Shown piece by piece: positions 13,534 through 29,100 of a stretch of DNA of 38,865 nt. Location of the stretch: NCBI GenBank assembly GCA_903848955.1, contig CAINHS010000046.1, positions 1 to 38,865 on the forward strand, written 5' to 3'. The position numbers were made by a program, and so were the translations under genes. This stretch comes from an uncultured beta proteobacterium (GTDB taxonomy: Bacteria > Pseudomonadota > Gammaproteobacteria > Burkholderiales > Rhodocyclaceae). Under the pieces are notes generated by a model. The model saw only the letters and a program-made list of their open reading frames with translations. It was not told where the DNA came from and made no database searches. Numbering within the stretch: position 1 is the first letter of the stretch; the number at the start of each line of letters is the position of its first letter.

Positions 13534-15047
13534 CGCAAAGCGGACGCCGCCGCCCCCTGCTCGCCACAGCTGCCGCGTTCGTTCTGGGCGCGTCATGCGT
13601 GCTCGCTTTCTCCCCTTTCGCCTTACCGCCTGCCGCGCCTCTGGCATTGGCCGGCCTGTTCCTGCTCTGGCGCAGAGCGGACACGGCACGCCGGGCGATG
13701 CTGCTGGGCCTGGCCTGGGGCGCCGGCTGCTTCCTCGTCGGCGTGTCCTGGATCTATGTCAGCCTGTCGCAATTCGGCGGCATGGAGCCGGCCGCCGCGG
13801 CCGCCGCGACCCTGCTGTTCTGCCTCTATCTGGCCCTGTTTCCGGCGCTGGCCGGGGGCGTATTCCTGCGTTGGCGCAGCAACACGGCGGCGGACGTGCT
13901 GCTCTTCGCCGGACTGTGGACCCTCGGCGAATGGCTGCGCGGAACCCTGTTCACCGGCTTCCCCTGGCTGGCGATCGGTTATTCGCAGAGCCCGCCGAGC
14001 CCGTTGGCCGGCTGGGCCGCGGTGCTGGGGGTATATGGCGTCGGCTTCCTGGTCGCCCTGATCGGCGGACTGCTTGGCGAAATGAGCAGCAGCGGCTGGC
14101 GCAAGCCCTGGTTCTGGAGCGCGATACTGCTGCTGACAGGCCTCGGCAGCGTACTGCGCAGCATGGAGTGGACAGTGCCGGCCGGCGCTCCGGTCAGCGT
14201 CAGCCTGCTGCAGGGCAACGTGCCGCAAAGCCTGAAGTGGGACCCGAAGCGGCTGCCGCTGTCGGTGGATACCTATCTGCGCCTGGCCAGGGAGCATCCG
14301 GCGACACTTACCGTTCTGCCCGAAACCGCCCTGCCGCTGTTCTTCACCGAAGTTCCGCGCCAGGTCTTGCGCGAGCTGACAATCAACGGCAATGCCCTGG
14401 TCGGTGTCGCGGTCGGCACCAGCGACGGCGGCTATACCAACGCCGCCGTCTCGCTGACGCCGGAACTGGCAGTGCGCGCCTACGCCAAGCGCCACCTGGT
14501 CCCGTTCGGCGAATACGTGCCGTCCGGATTTGCCTGGTTTTTCGACTTTGCGCAGATCCCGATGTCTGATTTCAGCGCCGGTCCGGCGCACCAGGAAGCG
14601 ATGAACATTGCCGGACAACGCATCGCGCCGAACATCTGCTACGAGGATCTGTTCGGCGAGGAGTTGCTGGCCGCATTGCCGGCCGCGACCTTGCTGGTCA
14701 ATATTTCCAATACGGCGTGGTTCGGCGATTCGCTGGCCCAACCGCAACACCTGCAGATCGCCCAGTTGCGCGCCATCGAAACCGGCCGCGTGATGCTGCG
14801 TGCCACCAACACGGGCATGACCGCCATGGTGGGGCAGGATGGCGCCATCCTTGCCGCCCTGCCGCCTTTTGTCACCGCGGCGCTGGTGGTTCAGGCCCAG
14901 GGCCGCAGCGGCCTGACGCCTTATGCCCGCTGGGGCAATCTGCTGACGCTGCTGTTCGCCGCCGGCGCCTGCCTGACGGCGCTGCGCCAACGCGACAGGT
15001 CATTGCGCGCCGCGGCTACAGCTTGTATGCCGCCATATCAATGGTGA
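13530..15047 (+). CDS. lnt: apolipoprotein N-acyltransferase
   Basis: Inner-membrane enzyme that adds the third acyl chain to the N-terminal cysteine of lipoproteins. The first 205 residues form several hydrophobic helices; the rest is a periplasmic nitrilase-like domain. The catalytic triad is visible as Glu265 (VLPETALPLFF), Lys320 (AYAKRHLVPFGEYVP) and Cys370 (APNICYEDLFGEE). The 505-residue length is normal. Translation is coupled to corC by a 4-nt overlap. Its 3' end overlaps a convergent small gene by about 30 nt. Confidence 0.97.
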   Translation: MTQSGRRRPLLATAAAFVLGASCVLAFSPFALPPAAPLALAGLFLLWRRADTARRAMLLGLAWGAGCFLVGVSWIYVSLSQFGGMEPAAAAAATLLFCLYLALFPALAGGVFLRWRSNTAADVLLFAGLWTLGEWLRGTLFTGFPWLAIGYSQSPPSPLAGWAAVLGVYGVGFLVALIGGLLGEMSSSGWRKPWFWSAILLLTGLGSVLRSMEWTVPAGAPVSVSLLQGNVPQSLKWDPKRLPLSVDTYLRLAREHPATLTVLPETALPLFFTEVPRQVLRELTINGNALVGVAVGTSDGGYTNAAVSLTPELAVRAYAKRHLVPFGEYVPSGFAWFFDFAQIPMSDFSAGPAHQEAMNIAGQRIAPNICYEDLFGEELLAALPAATLLVNISNTAWFGDSLAQPQHLQIAQLRAIETGRVMLRATNTGMTAMVGQDGAILAALPPFVTAALVVQAQGRSGLTPYARWGNLLTLLFAAGACLTALRQRDRSLRAAATACMPPYQW

Positions 15048-15330
15048 GACTTGGCCGCCCCATGGCCTGCAGCGCCGCGCACAGAAACTTTTTCACCTCG
15101 GGATGCAGCGGATCGTACTCGGCAGGCTTGAAGTTCAGGGCGAGCATCAGGATCTGGTCCACCAGCAGCAGTTTTCCCACGGGATTGGGAGTTTCCAGTT
15201 CTGCGGCATGAAACGCCTCGCCGATCCACCGGCGGGCGCCGGCCGGATCGAAGGCAGCCAGATCTTCCGCACCGAGAGGAAAAGCATAACGCTCGCCGTT
15301 CTTCAACACCACGCTGACTTGATGATCCAC
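15016..15330 (-). CDS. conserved small protein of unknown function
   Basis: A 104-residue product beginning with GTG at 15328-15330, chosen because AAGGAG (15340-15345) stands 9 nt upstream. A longer frame back to 15477 reads into low-quality sequence and is not favoured. The protein is soluble, starts with a short beta strand pair (HQVSVVLKNGERYAFPL) and continues with amphipathic helices (KLLLVDQILMLALNFKPAEY). No motif was recognised. It lies convergent to lnt with 32 nt of overlap and divergent from glyQ. Confidence 0.6.
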   Translation of the reverse strand: MDHQVSVVLKNGERYAFPLGAEDLAAFDPAGARRWIGEAFHAAELETPNPVGKLLLVDQILMLALNFKPAEYDPLHPEVKKFLCAALQAMGRPSLTIDMAAYKL

Positions 15331-15524
15331 GGTAACCTGCTCCTTGTGTCGGTCGTTGTACTGTCGCGGATGATACCGGAAGCGGCTGCAGCAGATGACG
15401 CAAGAACCGGCCGCCGGGCAATAAACGCGCAGCGCCGGCAGACCCGGCAAGTCCGCCTGCCGGCTCAGATGCACCACGGAAACCCTGTAAAATCTGCCCT
15501 CTCGCGAATTAACGGGGTTCCCCG

Positions 15525-16547
15525 ATGAAGAAACAAACGACGTTCAGCTCCGACGTCACGCGCACAAACGCGCATGAGTCTTCGCTGAAGGCGGGCCAAA
15601 AGCCGACTTTTAGCTCCGACGTCACGCGCACAAACGCGCATGAGTCTTCGCTGAAGGCGGGCCACGGCCCGACCTTTCAAGAAGTCATTCTGCGGCTTCA
15701 GGATTTCTGGAACAAGCAGGGCTGTGTCCTGCTCCAGCCCTATGACATCGAAGTCGGCGCCGGCACGTTCCACACCGCCACCTTCCTGCGTTCGATCGGC
15801 CCCGAGCCCTGGCGCGCAGCCTATGTCCAGCCCTCGCGGCGGCCCAAGGACGGGCGCTATGGCGAGAACCCGAACCGCCTGCAGCACTACTACCAGTACC
15901 AGGTGGTGCTCAAGCCCAGTCCGCCGGACATCCAGGAACTCTATCTCGGCAGCCTGCGCGCGCTGGGCATCAACACCTCGGAACATGACATCCGCTTTGT
16001 CGAGGATGACTGGGAATCGCCGACGCTGGGCGCCTGGGGGCTGGGCTGGGAAGTCTGGCTGGACGGCATGGAAGTCACCCAGTTCACCTACTTCCAGGAA
16101 GTCGGATCGATCCCCTGCCGTCCGGTGCTGGGCGAAATCACCTACGGCATAGAGCGCCTCGCCATGTACCTGCAAAGCGTCGAAAACGTCTTCGACCTGG
16201 TCTGGGCGCCGGGCGTTACCTATGGCGACGTGTATCACCAGAACGAGGTCGAGCAATCGACCTACAACTTCGAGCATTCCGATGTCGACTGGCTGTTTGC
16301 GCAGTTCTCCAAATTCGAATCCGAGGCCAAGCGCCTGATCGGCCTCAACCTTCCGCTGCCCGGCTTCGAGATGGTGATGAAGGCCTCGCACAGCTTCAAC
16401 CTGCTCGATGCGCGCGGCGCGATTTCGGTCACCGAACGCGCCGCCTTCATCGGCCGCGTCCGCGCCCTGGCACGTGAAATCGCCCAGGCCTATTTCGATT
16501 CGCGCGAGCGGCTCGGCTTCCCGATGCTGAAAGGAAGCACGACATGA
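15525..16547 (+). CDS. glyQ: glycyl-tRNA synthetase alpha subunit with duplicated N-terminal insert
   Basis: Alpha subunit of the tetrameric (alpha2beta2) glycyl-tRNA synthetase; it carries the class II catalytic core. The core runs from [19 protein letters not shown] to the C-terminus, with [47 protein letters not shown] and [16 protein letters not shown]. The odd part is the N-terminus: after MKKQT come two 22-residue units, [19 protein letters not shown] plus a 3-residue end, before the native TFQ. E. coli GlyQ has only about seven residues there. The unit is palindromic in DNA (see repeat entries). The ATG at 15525 is the only reasonable start, so the extension appears to be translated. 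It overlaps glyS by 4 nt. Confidence 0.96.
15540..15605 (+). repeat. palindromic in-frame repeat in glyQ, unit 1
   Basis: A 66-bp (22-codon) unit. Its core 15543-15589 folds into an imperfect hairpin: outer arms TTCAGC (15543-15548) and GCTGAA (15584-15589), then a 3x3 internal loop, GAC/GTC and TCA/TGA pairs around one bulge, and GCGC/GCGC closing a 6-nt loop. It shares 53 identical consecutive bases with unit 2. Its size, palindrome and in-frame position recall Rickettsia palindromic elements. Confidence 0.85.
15606..15671 (+). repeat. palindromic in-frame repeat in glyQ, unit 2
   Basis: Second 66-bp unit, adjacent and in the same orientation and frame. It differs from unit 1 only at its edges (first codons ACT TTT instead of ACG TTC; last codons CAC GGC CCG instead of CAA AAG CCG). 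The codons for Thr-Phe occur at the start of unit 1, unit 2 and the native core (ACC TTT at 15672), as a target duplication or tandem slippage would leave. Confidence 0.85.
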
Positions 16548-20458: not shown

Positions 20459-21201
20459 TGTTCCTCGAACAACTCAAGCTGTTCCGGCTGCCCTCGGCGC
20501 CGCCGGAGGCGAAGACGCGCCACCTGCTGATCGGCGGCCGCATTGTCGACTACCGGCTCAAGAGCGGCGCCAAGCGCCTGACCATGACCATCGACGAGCG
20601 CGGTTTGCGCATCGGCGCACCGCGTCGCGTCCCGCTGACGGAGATCGAGGCCTTCGTCCATGGCCACGGCGACTGGGTCCTGAAGAAACTCGGCGAACTG
20701 GCTCACGCCACGCAGCCGCGGCACCTCACCGTCAAAGACGGCCTGCGCCTGCCGCTGCTCGACGGCGATGCCGAAGTTCGCGTCCTGCCGGGCGCCAACC
20801 GGGTGCGCTGGGTCGCCGACGTACTGGTCCTCGAAGCGCGGCCGGAGGCGGACCTGGCCCAGTTGGCGATACGCGCCCTGCAGAAGCGGGCGCTCACCCA
20901 TTTCAGCGGGCGGCTTGCGCATTACAGCGGCCGGCTCGAGCTCGAGCTGCCGAAGCTCGGACTGTCTTCGGCGCATACGCGCTGGGGCAGTTGCAGCAAG
21001 CATGGCGGCATCCGCGTCAATTGGCGGCTGATTCATCTGCCCGCGCACCTGGGTGACTACGTGGTCGCCCACGAAGTCGCCCACCTTCTGGAAATGAACC
21101 ACAGCCCGCGCTTCTGGGCCGTGGTCACCTCGCTCTACCCGGAGTGGAAAGACGCCCGCAGCGAACTCAAGCAGCGCGCCGCCTCTCTGCCCATACTCTA
21201 A
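20458..21201 (+). CDS. YgjP-like M48-type zinc metallopeptidase (DUF45)
   Basis: Putative zinc peptidase of 247 residues. It has the DUF45 beta-rich N-terminus (RIVDYRLKSGAKRLTMTIDERGLRI), then SSAHTRWGSCSKHGGIRVNWRLIHLP and the zinc motif HEVAHLLEMNHSPRFW (His205, Glu206, His209, with His215 the likely third ligand). The start is the ATG at 20458, sharing its A with the stop of the upstream degenerate paralogue. Substrate unknown for the family in bacteria. Confidence 0.93.
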   Translation: MFLEQLKLFRLPSAPPEAKTRHLLIGGRIVDYRLKSGAKRLTMTIDERGLRIGAPRRVPLTEIEAFVHGHGDWVLKKLGELAHATQPRHLTVKDGLRLPLLDGDAEVRVLPGANRVRWVADVLVLEARPEADLAQLAIRALQKRALTHFSGRLAHYSGRLELELPKLGLSSAHTRWGSCSKHGGIRVNWRLIHLPAHLGDYVVAHEVAHLLEMNHSPRFWAVVTSLYPEWKDARSELKQRAASLPIL

Positions 21202-26135: not shown

Positions 26136-29100
26136 ATGACCATCCGCGTTGCTCTCAACCACCAGACCCGTTACAGCTTCGACCGCGCCGTCAGTCTCTG
26201 GCCGCACGAGGTAAGGCTGCGTCCCGCCGCGCACAGTCGCACGCCCATCCTCAGCTATTCGCTGAAGGTCGAGCCGGCCGGCCATTTCCTCAACTGGCAG
26301 CAGGACCCGTTCGGCAACTGGGTTGCCCGCCTGGTGTTCCCGGAGAAGGCCGAAGCGCTTTCGATCAGCGTCGACCTGGTGGCCGACATGACGGTCATCA
26401 ATCCCTTCGATTTCTTCATGGACGAGTTCGCCGAGAACTTTCCCTTCGACTATCCGCAGGAACTCAAGCGCGAACTCGGTCCCTACCTTGAGGCCGACCC
26501 CGCCGGACCGCTGCTGGCCGGTTGGCTGGCCCGCGCACGCAAGGAACTGCTGAACAAGGAGATGCGCACCATCGACATGCTGGTAGGCATCAACCAGCGC
26601 GTTCAGGGTGACGTCGGCTACATCGTGCGCCTCGAAGCCGGTGTGCAGACGCCGGAGGAAACCCTCGAATCGGCGCGCGGTTCCTGCCGCGACTCGGCCT
26701 GGCTGCTGGTGCAGGTGCTGCGCCACCTCGGCCTCGCCGCGCGCTTCGCCTCGGGCTACCTGATCCAGTTGAAGGCCGACGTCAAGGCGCTCGATGGCCC
26801 GTCCGGCACCGACCATGACTTTACCGACCTGCATGCGTGGACCGAGGTCTACATCCCCGGCGCCGGCTGGATCGGACTCGATCCGACCTCGGGCCTGCTG
26901 GCCGGTGAAGGCCATATCCCGCTGGCCTGCACCGCCATGCCCTCCTCGGCGGCACCGGTAATAGGCGCCACGGAAAAATGCGAGACGCATTTCGATTTCG
27001 CCATGCGCGTGACCCGCATCCATGAAGATCCGCGCGTCACCCAACCCTATACCGAAGCGCAATGGCAGGCGGTGCTCGACCTCGGCCAACAGGTCGACGC
27101 CGAACTCCTTGAGCACGACGTGCGTTTGACCATGGGCGGCGAGCCGACCTTTGTTTCCATCGACGACATGGACGGCCCGGAATGGAATTACACGGCCTTG
27201 TCGGACAAGAAACGTGAACTCGCCGGCGATCTGCTCAAGCGTCTGCAGGGACATTTTGCGCCGGGGGCGATGCTGCATTTCGGCCAGGGCAAGTGGTATC
27301 CCGGCGAACCGCTGCCGCGCTGGGCGCTGGGCTGTTACTGGCGCACGGACGGCAAGCCGCTGTGGAAAGAACATGCGCTGATGGTCACCACCGATGGCGA
27401 CGGCGCGCAGCAGGCGAAAGACGCCCTGCATTTCATCCGCCGCCTGACGCGGGAACTCGGTCTCGATCCGGGTTTCGTCATTCCGGCCTTCGAAGACGTC
27501 ACCCGCATCATCGACGAGGAACAGCGCTGGCCGGAAAATTTCGATCCGCTCAAGGCCGACCTGAAGGAACCGGACGAGCGCCGCCGCGTGGCGAAACTCA
27601 TCGAACGCGGCCTGGGCCAGGCCGCGGGTTACGTGCTGCCGCTGAAGTCGCTGCCGCCGCCGGCTGACAACAGGAAATTCGCGTCCCGCTTCCGTTCCAG
27701 TCCGTGGCCGCTGCGGCGCGAGCATCTCTACCTGATTCCCGGCGACTCGCCCTTGGGCCTGCGCCTGCCGCTGGCATCCTTGCCCTGGGTCGCCGCCGGA
27801 GACAAGGAAGAAGACGTCGGCCGTGACCCTTTCGACGCGCCTGAGGCCCTGCCCGATGCGAAGCCCGCGCTGCTGAAGGTCGAAGCGCCGGCGACTCCGC
27901 CCAAAGCCGGCTACGATCCGCGTGAAATCGTGCACACCGCGCTGTGTGCCGAGGTGCGCGACGGCGTGCTGTGCATTTTCCTGCCGCCGGTGCCCCTGCT
28001 CGAAGACTTCGTCACGCTGCTGACCGCGATCGAAGCCAGCGCCGCCGACCTGAAACTGCCGGTGCGCCTGGAAGGCTACACGCCGCCCTCCGACCCGCGC
28101 CTGAAGGAATTCCGCATCACCCCCGATCCGGGCGTGATCGAAGTGAACATCCATCCCGCCAGCACCTGGCCGCAACTGGTGGAGAACACCCGGACGCTTT
28201 ACGAAGAAGCCCGCCTGACGCGCCTCGGCGCCGAGAAATTCATGCTCGACGGCCGCCACACCGGCACCGGCGGCGGCAATCACGTGACGCTGGGCGCCGC
28301 TTCGCCTGCCGACTCGCCCTGCCTGCGCCGGCCCGATCTCTTGATGAGCCTGATCACCTACTGGCAGCATCACCCGGCGCTGTCTTTCCTGTTCTCCGGA
28401 TTGTTCATCGGCCCCACCAGCCAGGCGCCACGCGTCGACGAGGCGCGGCACGAAAGCCTCTACGAGCTCGAGATCGCCTTCCAGCAGATGGCGGAACGCT
28501 TGAAGCCCGGCGAGGAAAGCCTGCAGCCCTGGCTGGTCGATCGCCTGCTGCGCAACCTGTTGGTCGATCTTTCCGGCAACACCCACCGCGCCGAGTTCTG
28601 CATCGACAAGCTGTATTCGCCCGACAGCGCCACCGGGCGCCTCGGCCTGGTCGAGTTCCGCGGTTTCGAGATGCCGCCGCACGCGCAGATGTCGCTGCTG
28701 CAGATGCTGCTGCTGCGCGCGCTGGTCGCCCGCTTCTGGCAGACGCCTTACGCCGGCAACGGCGGCCAGGGCCTGATGCGCTGGGGCACCGAACTGCACG
28801 ACCGCTACATGCTGCCGCACTTCGTCGCCCAGGACATGAAGGACGTCGTGCGCGACCTGCAGCGTGCCGGCTATGCCTTCGACTTCGAGTGGTTCGCGCC
28901 CTTCATCGAGTTCCGCTTTCCGCGCTTCGGCACCGTGGTCTATCAGGGCATCGAGATCGAACTGCGGCAGGCCATCGAACCCTGGCACGTGCTGGGCGAG
29001 GAAGTCGCCGCCGGCGGTACCGCGCGCTACGTCGATTCCTCGGTCGAGCGCATGCAGGTCACGGTGCGCCACATGAACGACAACCGCCACATCCTCACCT

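Follow-up and report, generated by a model that had tools for sequence, protein, structure and literature searches.

A tandem pair of in-frame palindromic elements in a betaproteobacterial glyQ gene, probably from a dispersed family of mobile palindromes

Palindromic elements that sit in frame within protein genes are best known from Rickettsia. The Rickettsia palindromic elements (RPE-1 to RPE-3 and others) are dispersed palindromes that are translated in frame in unrelated housekeeping proteins and occupy the same site in orthologs (PMC3767692, PMC10969869). Their length is given as 100–150 bp, with one RPE-4 insert listed at 84 (PMC3767692). Because the R. conorii elements RPE-4 and RPE-6 have also been classed as CGTC REPs, size is no clean criterion for those two (PMC3733652). 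The same text presents the GTAG and CGTC REPs as short dispersed palindromes, some of them intragenic, including in tRNA synthetases (PMC3733652).

Within the window (the whole stretch of DNA analysed, 38,865 nt), glyQ contains two 66-bp tandem units, which we read, with a probability of about 0.8, as a tandem pair from a dispersed betaproteobacterial family of mobile palindromic elements. A preliminary description of the locus likened the insert to RPEs in size, palindromic form and tolerance of translation. The last two stand and the shared in-frame insertion into unrelated protein genes supports the likeness, but the size does not fit: here the element is 49 nt in a 66-bp unit, and across the family the element is about 46–51 nt and the insert 54–66 bp, against the 100–150 bp of the RPEs as described. 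Unlike the RPEs of Rickettsia and Wolbachia, the element is betaproteobacterial, lies 3′ of a TTT and often has its left flank duplicated. It resembles both REP superfamilies in being a short dispersed palindrome with some copies in genes; CGTC REPs, as the cited text portrays them, have an unpaired end tag (PMC3733652), whereas here the motif lies internally, forms base pairs and frequently reads CGAC or CGGC with AT after it. The element ends in TTTAG paired with CTGAA, so that the unpaired GTAG of GTAG REPs is absent, and unlike those REPs it shows no association with a RAYT (Y1) transposase. In being small, palindromic and presumably non-autonomous, it is like the prokaryotic MITEs. MITEs carry a fixed short target duplication, whereas the flank duplication here varies from about 9 bp (at glyQ) to about 60 bp.

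The glyQ ORF lies on the forward strand at 15525–16547, from its ATG at 15525 to a stop ending at 16547, and encodes a 340-aa glycine--tRNA ligase alpha subunit that scores above the cut-offs of NCBIfam TIGR00388 and NF006827, the match beginning at residue 50. TRF reports the 66-bp tandem at 15538–15664; we place unit 1 at 15540–15605 and unit 2 at 15606–15671, 22 codons each. They are identical at 60 of 66 positions overall and do share the 53 consecutive bases (15546–15598 and 15612–15664) noted in the preliminary description. Each unit contains a 49-nt copy of the element, or hairpin 1, at 15542–15590 (covariance model R1, E 8.0e-13) and 15608–15656 (E 4.6e-14), followed by a linker. By sequence and linker comparison, the linker at 15591–15605 carries a degenerate second hairpin; the linker at 15657–15671 carries the second hairpin CGGGCC-AC-GGCCCG, with a stem that shows covariation across the glyQ copies. 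As had been observed, each of the three unit boundaries has Thr-Phe codons (ACG TTC, ACT TTT and ACC TTT), and the third, with ACC at 15672–15674 and TTT next, is the start of the conserved GlyQ core. Since GlyQ in element-free sister genomes (loci L047–L053) has 296 aa and the N-terminus MN[E/Q]KPTFQE[V/I]ILRLQ, the proposed gain of 44 residues is borne out. No in-frame ATG, GTG or TTG offers an alternative start between the ATG at 15525 and the conserved FQEVILRL core, and any complete GlyQ begun at a usual start codon must therefore contain the 44 extra residues. An AlphaFold2 prediction from 26 GlyQ sequences (mean pLDDT 69.6) gives residues 1–44 a pLDDT below 50, with ten-residue blocks at 29–30 up to residue 40, and begins the fold with a helix at 51–64 (about 90). 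The element-encoded residues are predicted to form a disordered N-terminal tail ahead of this first helix.

Each unit had been said to fold as an imperfect 47-nt hairpin of about 16 pairs. The imperfect fold is found at 15543–15589 with 15 pairs and −20 kcal/mol as RNA, and 2 of 200 shuffles are as stable (z −3.4); the full 132 nt, when folded as DNA, stand out less (z −1.5, with 16 of 200 shuffles equally good). Across copies, the element is an imperfect palindrome, mostly 46–51 nt, with the consensus TTTAGyTyCGrCrTmACGC...loop...GCrTkAGyCTkCrCTGAA. Model R1 (49 positions, 19 pairs) was built from 22 copies of relatives, those of alignment A2 after one decayed copy of the 23 (L023) was left out. 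The stem covaries in these 22 copies, with 23 two-sided cells versus 7.9 after shuffling; four of five measures exceed the shuffles and also slid structures, while the fifth, further pair types, gives no excess (13 versus 12.7). Among 109 distinct copies the count is 165 versus 53.7 and all five measures are in excess, in an alignment that was itself fitted to R1. The second hairpin of the glyQ linkers covaries as well (80 of 90 cells; shuffle maximum 78), as assessed on 18 hand-picked linkers that omit two of the three from genome G016, that of the broken copy in G013 and that of G113.

Absence of the core from the rest of the genome had been named in the preliminary description as evidence against mobility, and taken literally this is what blastn returns: the 132 bp match themselves and eight chance-level stretches. 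Model R1 nevertheless finds 13 places in the genome at E ≤ 0.002, 11 of them outside glyQ; blastn misses these because members of the family share structure and conserved arms, not the loop. Besides the tandem pair, the copies in this genome are at most 82% alike, and recent transposition is accordingly not seen there. Among genomes of the host's own family, R1 matches occur in at least 43 of 199, and in at least 21 of 68 genera, both lower bounds because 30 candidates were scored per genome. A control draw across the phylum gave matches in 2 of 249 genomes, of which one was the host's own; the other, a one-contig genome from the same order, has 18 matches. Three of the 18 are identical 51-mers far apart, but within a larger dispersed repeat. 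The phylum draw and the 156 element-free genomes of the family argue against chance matches. Scanning one genome per species (84,980 species) for the exact consensus pattern gave 89 stretches, whose record titles comprise 79 Betaproteobacteria, 4 Hydrogenophilia and 6 unclassified Proteobacteria; none names Rickettsia or Wolbachia, although an exact pattern would miss diverged relatives. By blastn, 26 genomes in a set of 150 relatives, the host's own included, were matched at E ≤ 0.01. The stronger matches, read singly, are the same element at glyQ, in tsaD and in an ABC-F gene, and also between two pairs of genes that we recognise by eye as rplJ and rplL, and ntrB and ntrC. On inspection, a number of the weakest matches, six loci among them, proved unrelated. 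One in-frame copy with its flanks had no match in phage and plasmid collections.

We next consider copies inside proteins. After merging copies identical with their flanks, and leaving out 3 weak rows of 115 and 7 of 64 (six duplicate-id loci and one weak), the list holds 157 distinct copies, most of the named records being metagenome assemblies and copies in related genomes not being independent. A simple gene caller places 117 between genes, 29 in genes in the sense orientation and 11 antisense, some of the antisense assignments being doubtful. Of the 29 sense copies, 28 read in the frame that makes the TTT a Phe codon, a count that is partly circular since a called gene must be open; 12 of the 29 are glyQ copies. 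The 49-nt length is found in 20 of 29 sense copies versus 10 of 117 intergenic ones. Thirty-seven copies, some doubtful, keep the Phe frame open for at least 60 codons past the element. NCBIfam searches of ten proteins confirmed GlyQ, PurL, TsaD (two), Uup, UvrC, ArgF, RhlE (a fragment), UvrD and HisH as in-frame hosts, with the insert ahead of the conserved domain in GlyQ, ArgF and RhlE and within it in the others. The idea of a dispersed palindrome tolerated in frame is thus upheld by nine unrelated proteins, alongside the further copies in the host's own genome. Outside glyQ the commonest insert is F[SSDITPASGHESSLKLR]F, of 54 bp; in most glyQ copies the insert is 63–66 bp. One copy in the host's own genome (L110) lies antisense and seems to supply the C-terminus of what, by eye, we take to be a HisC-like protein.

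The element lies directly 3′ of a TTT that in coding genes is generally a Phe codon, and this placement leaves a TTT at both ends of the insert. When about 30 nt from the left of the element were sought within 90 nt to its right in 154 of the 157 copies, a duplicated left flank scored at least 12 in 29 of 154 (about a fifth), compared with 1.0% of mismatched pairs. Where individual cases were read, the same TTT also closes the repeat. The best repeats copy 50–60 nt or more, including the start codon and sometimes a presumed ribosome-binding site. The flank so duplicated is often a gene start, as for fabD, murG and rmlB, so that an intact gene stands downstream. Searches confirmed nine of ten such downstream genes (rmlB, murG, fabD, glyA, rsmA, secA, aroE, cheA and rpoA), the tenth protein, MobA-like, giving no match at 1e-40; no long flank repeat was scored for rpoA or glyA. 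Among the 25 start-duplicating copies, from 11 gene families of which some were named by eye, 23 have the TTT in Phe phase, against a background of 183 of 522 TTTs near starts; the two out-of-phase rows, one with an alignment one base short and one with a mis-picked start, are still counted as exceptions. In 9 of these 25, the upstream ORF's stop and the real start share bases in the form ATGA. The same pattern is seen beside a 5S rRNA gene (locus L242), where 25 nt of the gene's end are repeated, one of them mismatched, past the element, and the gene itself is whole; the duplication is therefore not confined to protein genes. This 5S junction recurs at a distant site, presumably in a second rrn operon. 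Flanking bases likewise show a tendency to pair, the first three offsets giving z 2.2, 9.4 and 8.4. One analysis of intergenic copies took 114 of the 117, and the pairing test took 154 copies: pairing extends by at least 5 further in 25 of the 154, versus 2.3% when shuffled, and all 25 are intergenic, with none among 28 sense copies.

Filled and empty sites, the latter anticipated for close relatives in the preliminary description, are seen at both genes compared. At glyQ, 12 of 30 loci read have 1 to 3 copies and 18 have none, among the latter G017, the sister of G014. All 18 linkers compared, from element to GlyQ core, are multiples of three in length. In the glyQ of G013 (L041), the first copy is closed by a TGA, and GlyQ begins at a new ATG within the array; this new start serves the second copy, and a short upstream ORF is left behind. 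In 25 genomes of one genus, fabD has a single start in 16 and a start-element-second start arrangement in 9. On a tree of 27 of the 30 glyQ loci, in which 6 of 24 inner branches are well supported, presence of the element requires at least 9 changes; on a 28-row fabD tree with many weak branches it requires at least 8. The same glyQ site is filled in other genera (G035, G069) and holds a decayed form in another family (G113), from which the insertion, or a hot spot, looks old. Of the suggested recent activity or slippage, then, only the tandem doubling looks recent. We note that a glyQ site common to several genera speaks against the mobile reading, as one old insertion followed by many losses would also fit.

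These presence patterns bear on the alternative that the element is a cis-acting RNA (a leader peptide, attenuator or coupling device) selected to regulate housekeeping genes, with the in-frame copies as by-products. Stem covariation would be expected of such an RNA, and copies in the host's own genome lie upstream of glyA, secA, rpoA, cheA and aroE; the short upstream ORFs with their ATGA overlaps and the terminator-like form of the second glyQ hairpin point the same way. However, presence flips among close relatives on both trees, each of which has many weak branches, the host genes have no pathway in common, copies are found within proteins and next to a 5S rRNA gene, and Rfam has no match on the element in positions 15000–16000 of the window or in ten loci. 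Template switching of DNA in palindromes is, moreover, another possible source of covariation. We consider a regulatory RNA improbable. An old N-terminal extension of GlyQ, kept for the sake of the protein and merely repeated in tandem here, is less probable still. It would account for one site being filled in 12 of 30 loci from several genera, and the preliminary description had counted conservation across distant GlyQ proteins against mobility; that conservation is partial, with copy number varying from 0 to 3 and a close sister lacking the insert, the tail is predicted to be disordered, and the same peptide in TsaD, PurL, UvrC and others already contradicts a GlyQ-specific role and leaves the mobile-element reading standing. 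Equally remote is local replication slippage or template switching alone at a quasi-palindromic hot spot, which tandem arrays, flank complementarity and direct and inverted flank copies might suggest, but which cannot carry a sequence between loci and is contradicted for the family by one consensus at unlinked loci and in several orders, even if such a process may have doubled the glyQ unit.

Under the preferred reading of a mobile palindrome, stem covariation, unlinked copies, filled and empty orthologous sites, in-frame copies and left-flank duplication are direct observations, and we infer that the element moves and that flank duplication is part of the insertion event. Most likely it is tolerated selfish DNA, for which a host function is not needed. 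Duplication of the flank would let the element enter near a gene start, the intact start being copied downstream and a short upstream ORF left behind; the 49-nt form may survive in proteins because element and linker add 54 bp without a stop, and the second glyQ unit would stem from a recent local tandem duplication. It counts against this reading that no mobility enzyme was found. The Pfam domain Y1_Tnp, whose model lumps RAYTs with other Y1 enzymes, is absent from the host's own genome and shows no association with the element (18 of 43 element-bearing versus 79 of 156 other genomes), nor does RVT_1, the reverse transcriptase domain (18 of 43 versus 70 of 156), both counts having been cross-tabulated by hand against R1 matches. 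By this lack of association, a Y1 transposase or reverse transcriptase is not supported as mobiliser. A search with the left arm in 12 copy-rich genomes, where not every arm was read in context, brought no longer autonomous partner to notice. A tentative and more specific model, which we think possible but would not yet favor, is a transposase-free palindrome whose insertion re-synthesizes the sequence to its left (X-TTT-element-X′-X-TTT), for example by hairpin-primed template switching or RNA-primed copying, and which in coding DNA persists only in the Phe frame; it would so spread across essential genes, whose starts it would duplicate and upstream of which it would create translationally coupled ORFs. 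Hairpin-primed template switching would perhaps explain why flank copies are both inverted and direct, and the stem would stay perfect with no need for an RNA function.

On the preferred reading, the family consists of mobile palindromes that proteins tolerate, with a recent doubling in this glyQ, and it is apparently undescribed: no description is found among the matches listed in the open-access literature, though a prior one is possible as most subscription papers fall outside it, and the consensus strings recovered from that literature a single 13-mer in one paper, which we take as chance. The family has filled and empty sites in sister species, so that it becomes possible to test how the element is inserted and lost and how essential proteins tolerate it, and its flank duplication points to an insertion route unlike those of the two enzyme classes considered, Y1 transposases and reverse transcriptases. 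As additional observations, tandem arrays of two to four elements with flanks occur in other genes and spacers, at five loci. Eight loci, from Thiobacillus UBA2597 and further genomes, have the element embedded in a larger dispersed repeat, approximately ggcgaagcggggcgtg-element-cttcgttttctttgg...gcacgagcaaagaaag...gccgggcg.ccccggcc. The window itself has further short tandem repeats at 20885–20937 (21-bp period) and 28685–28716 (15-bp period).
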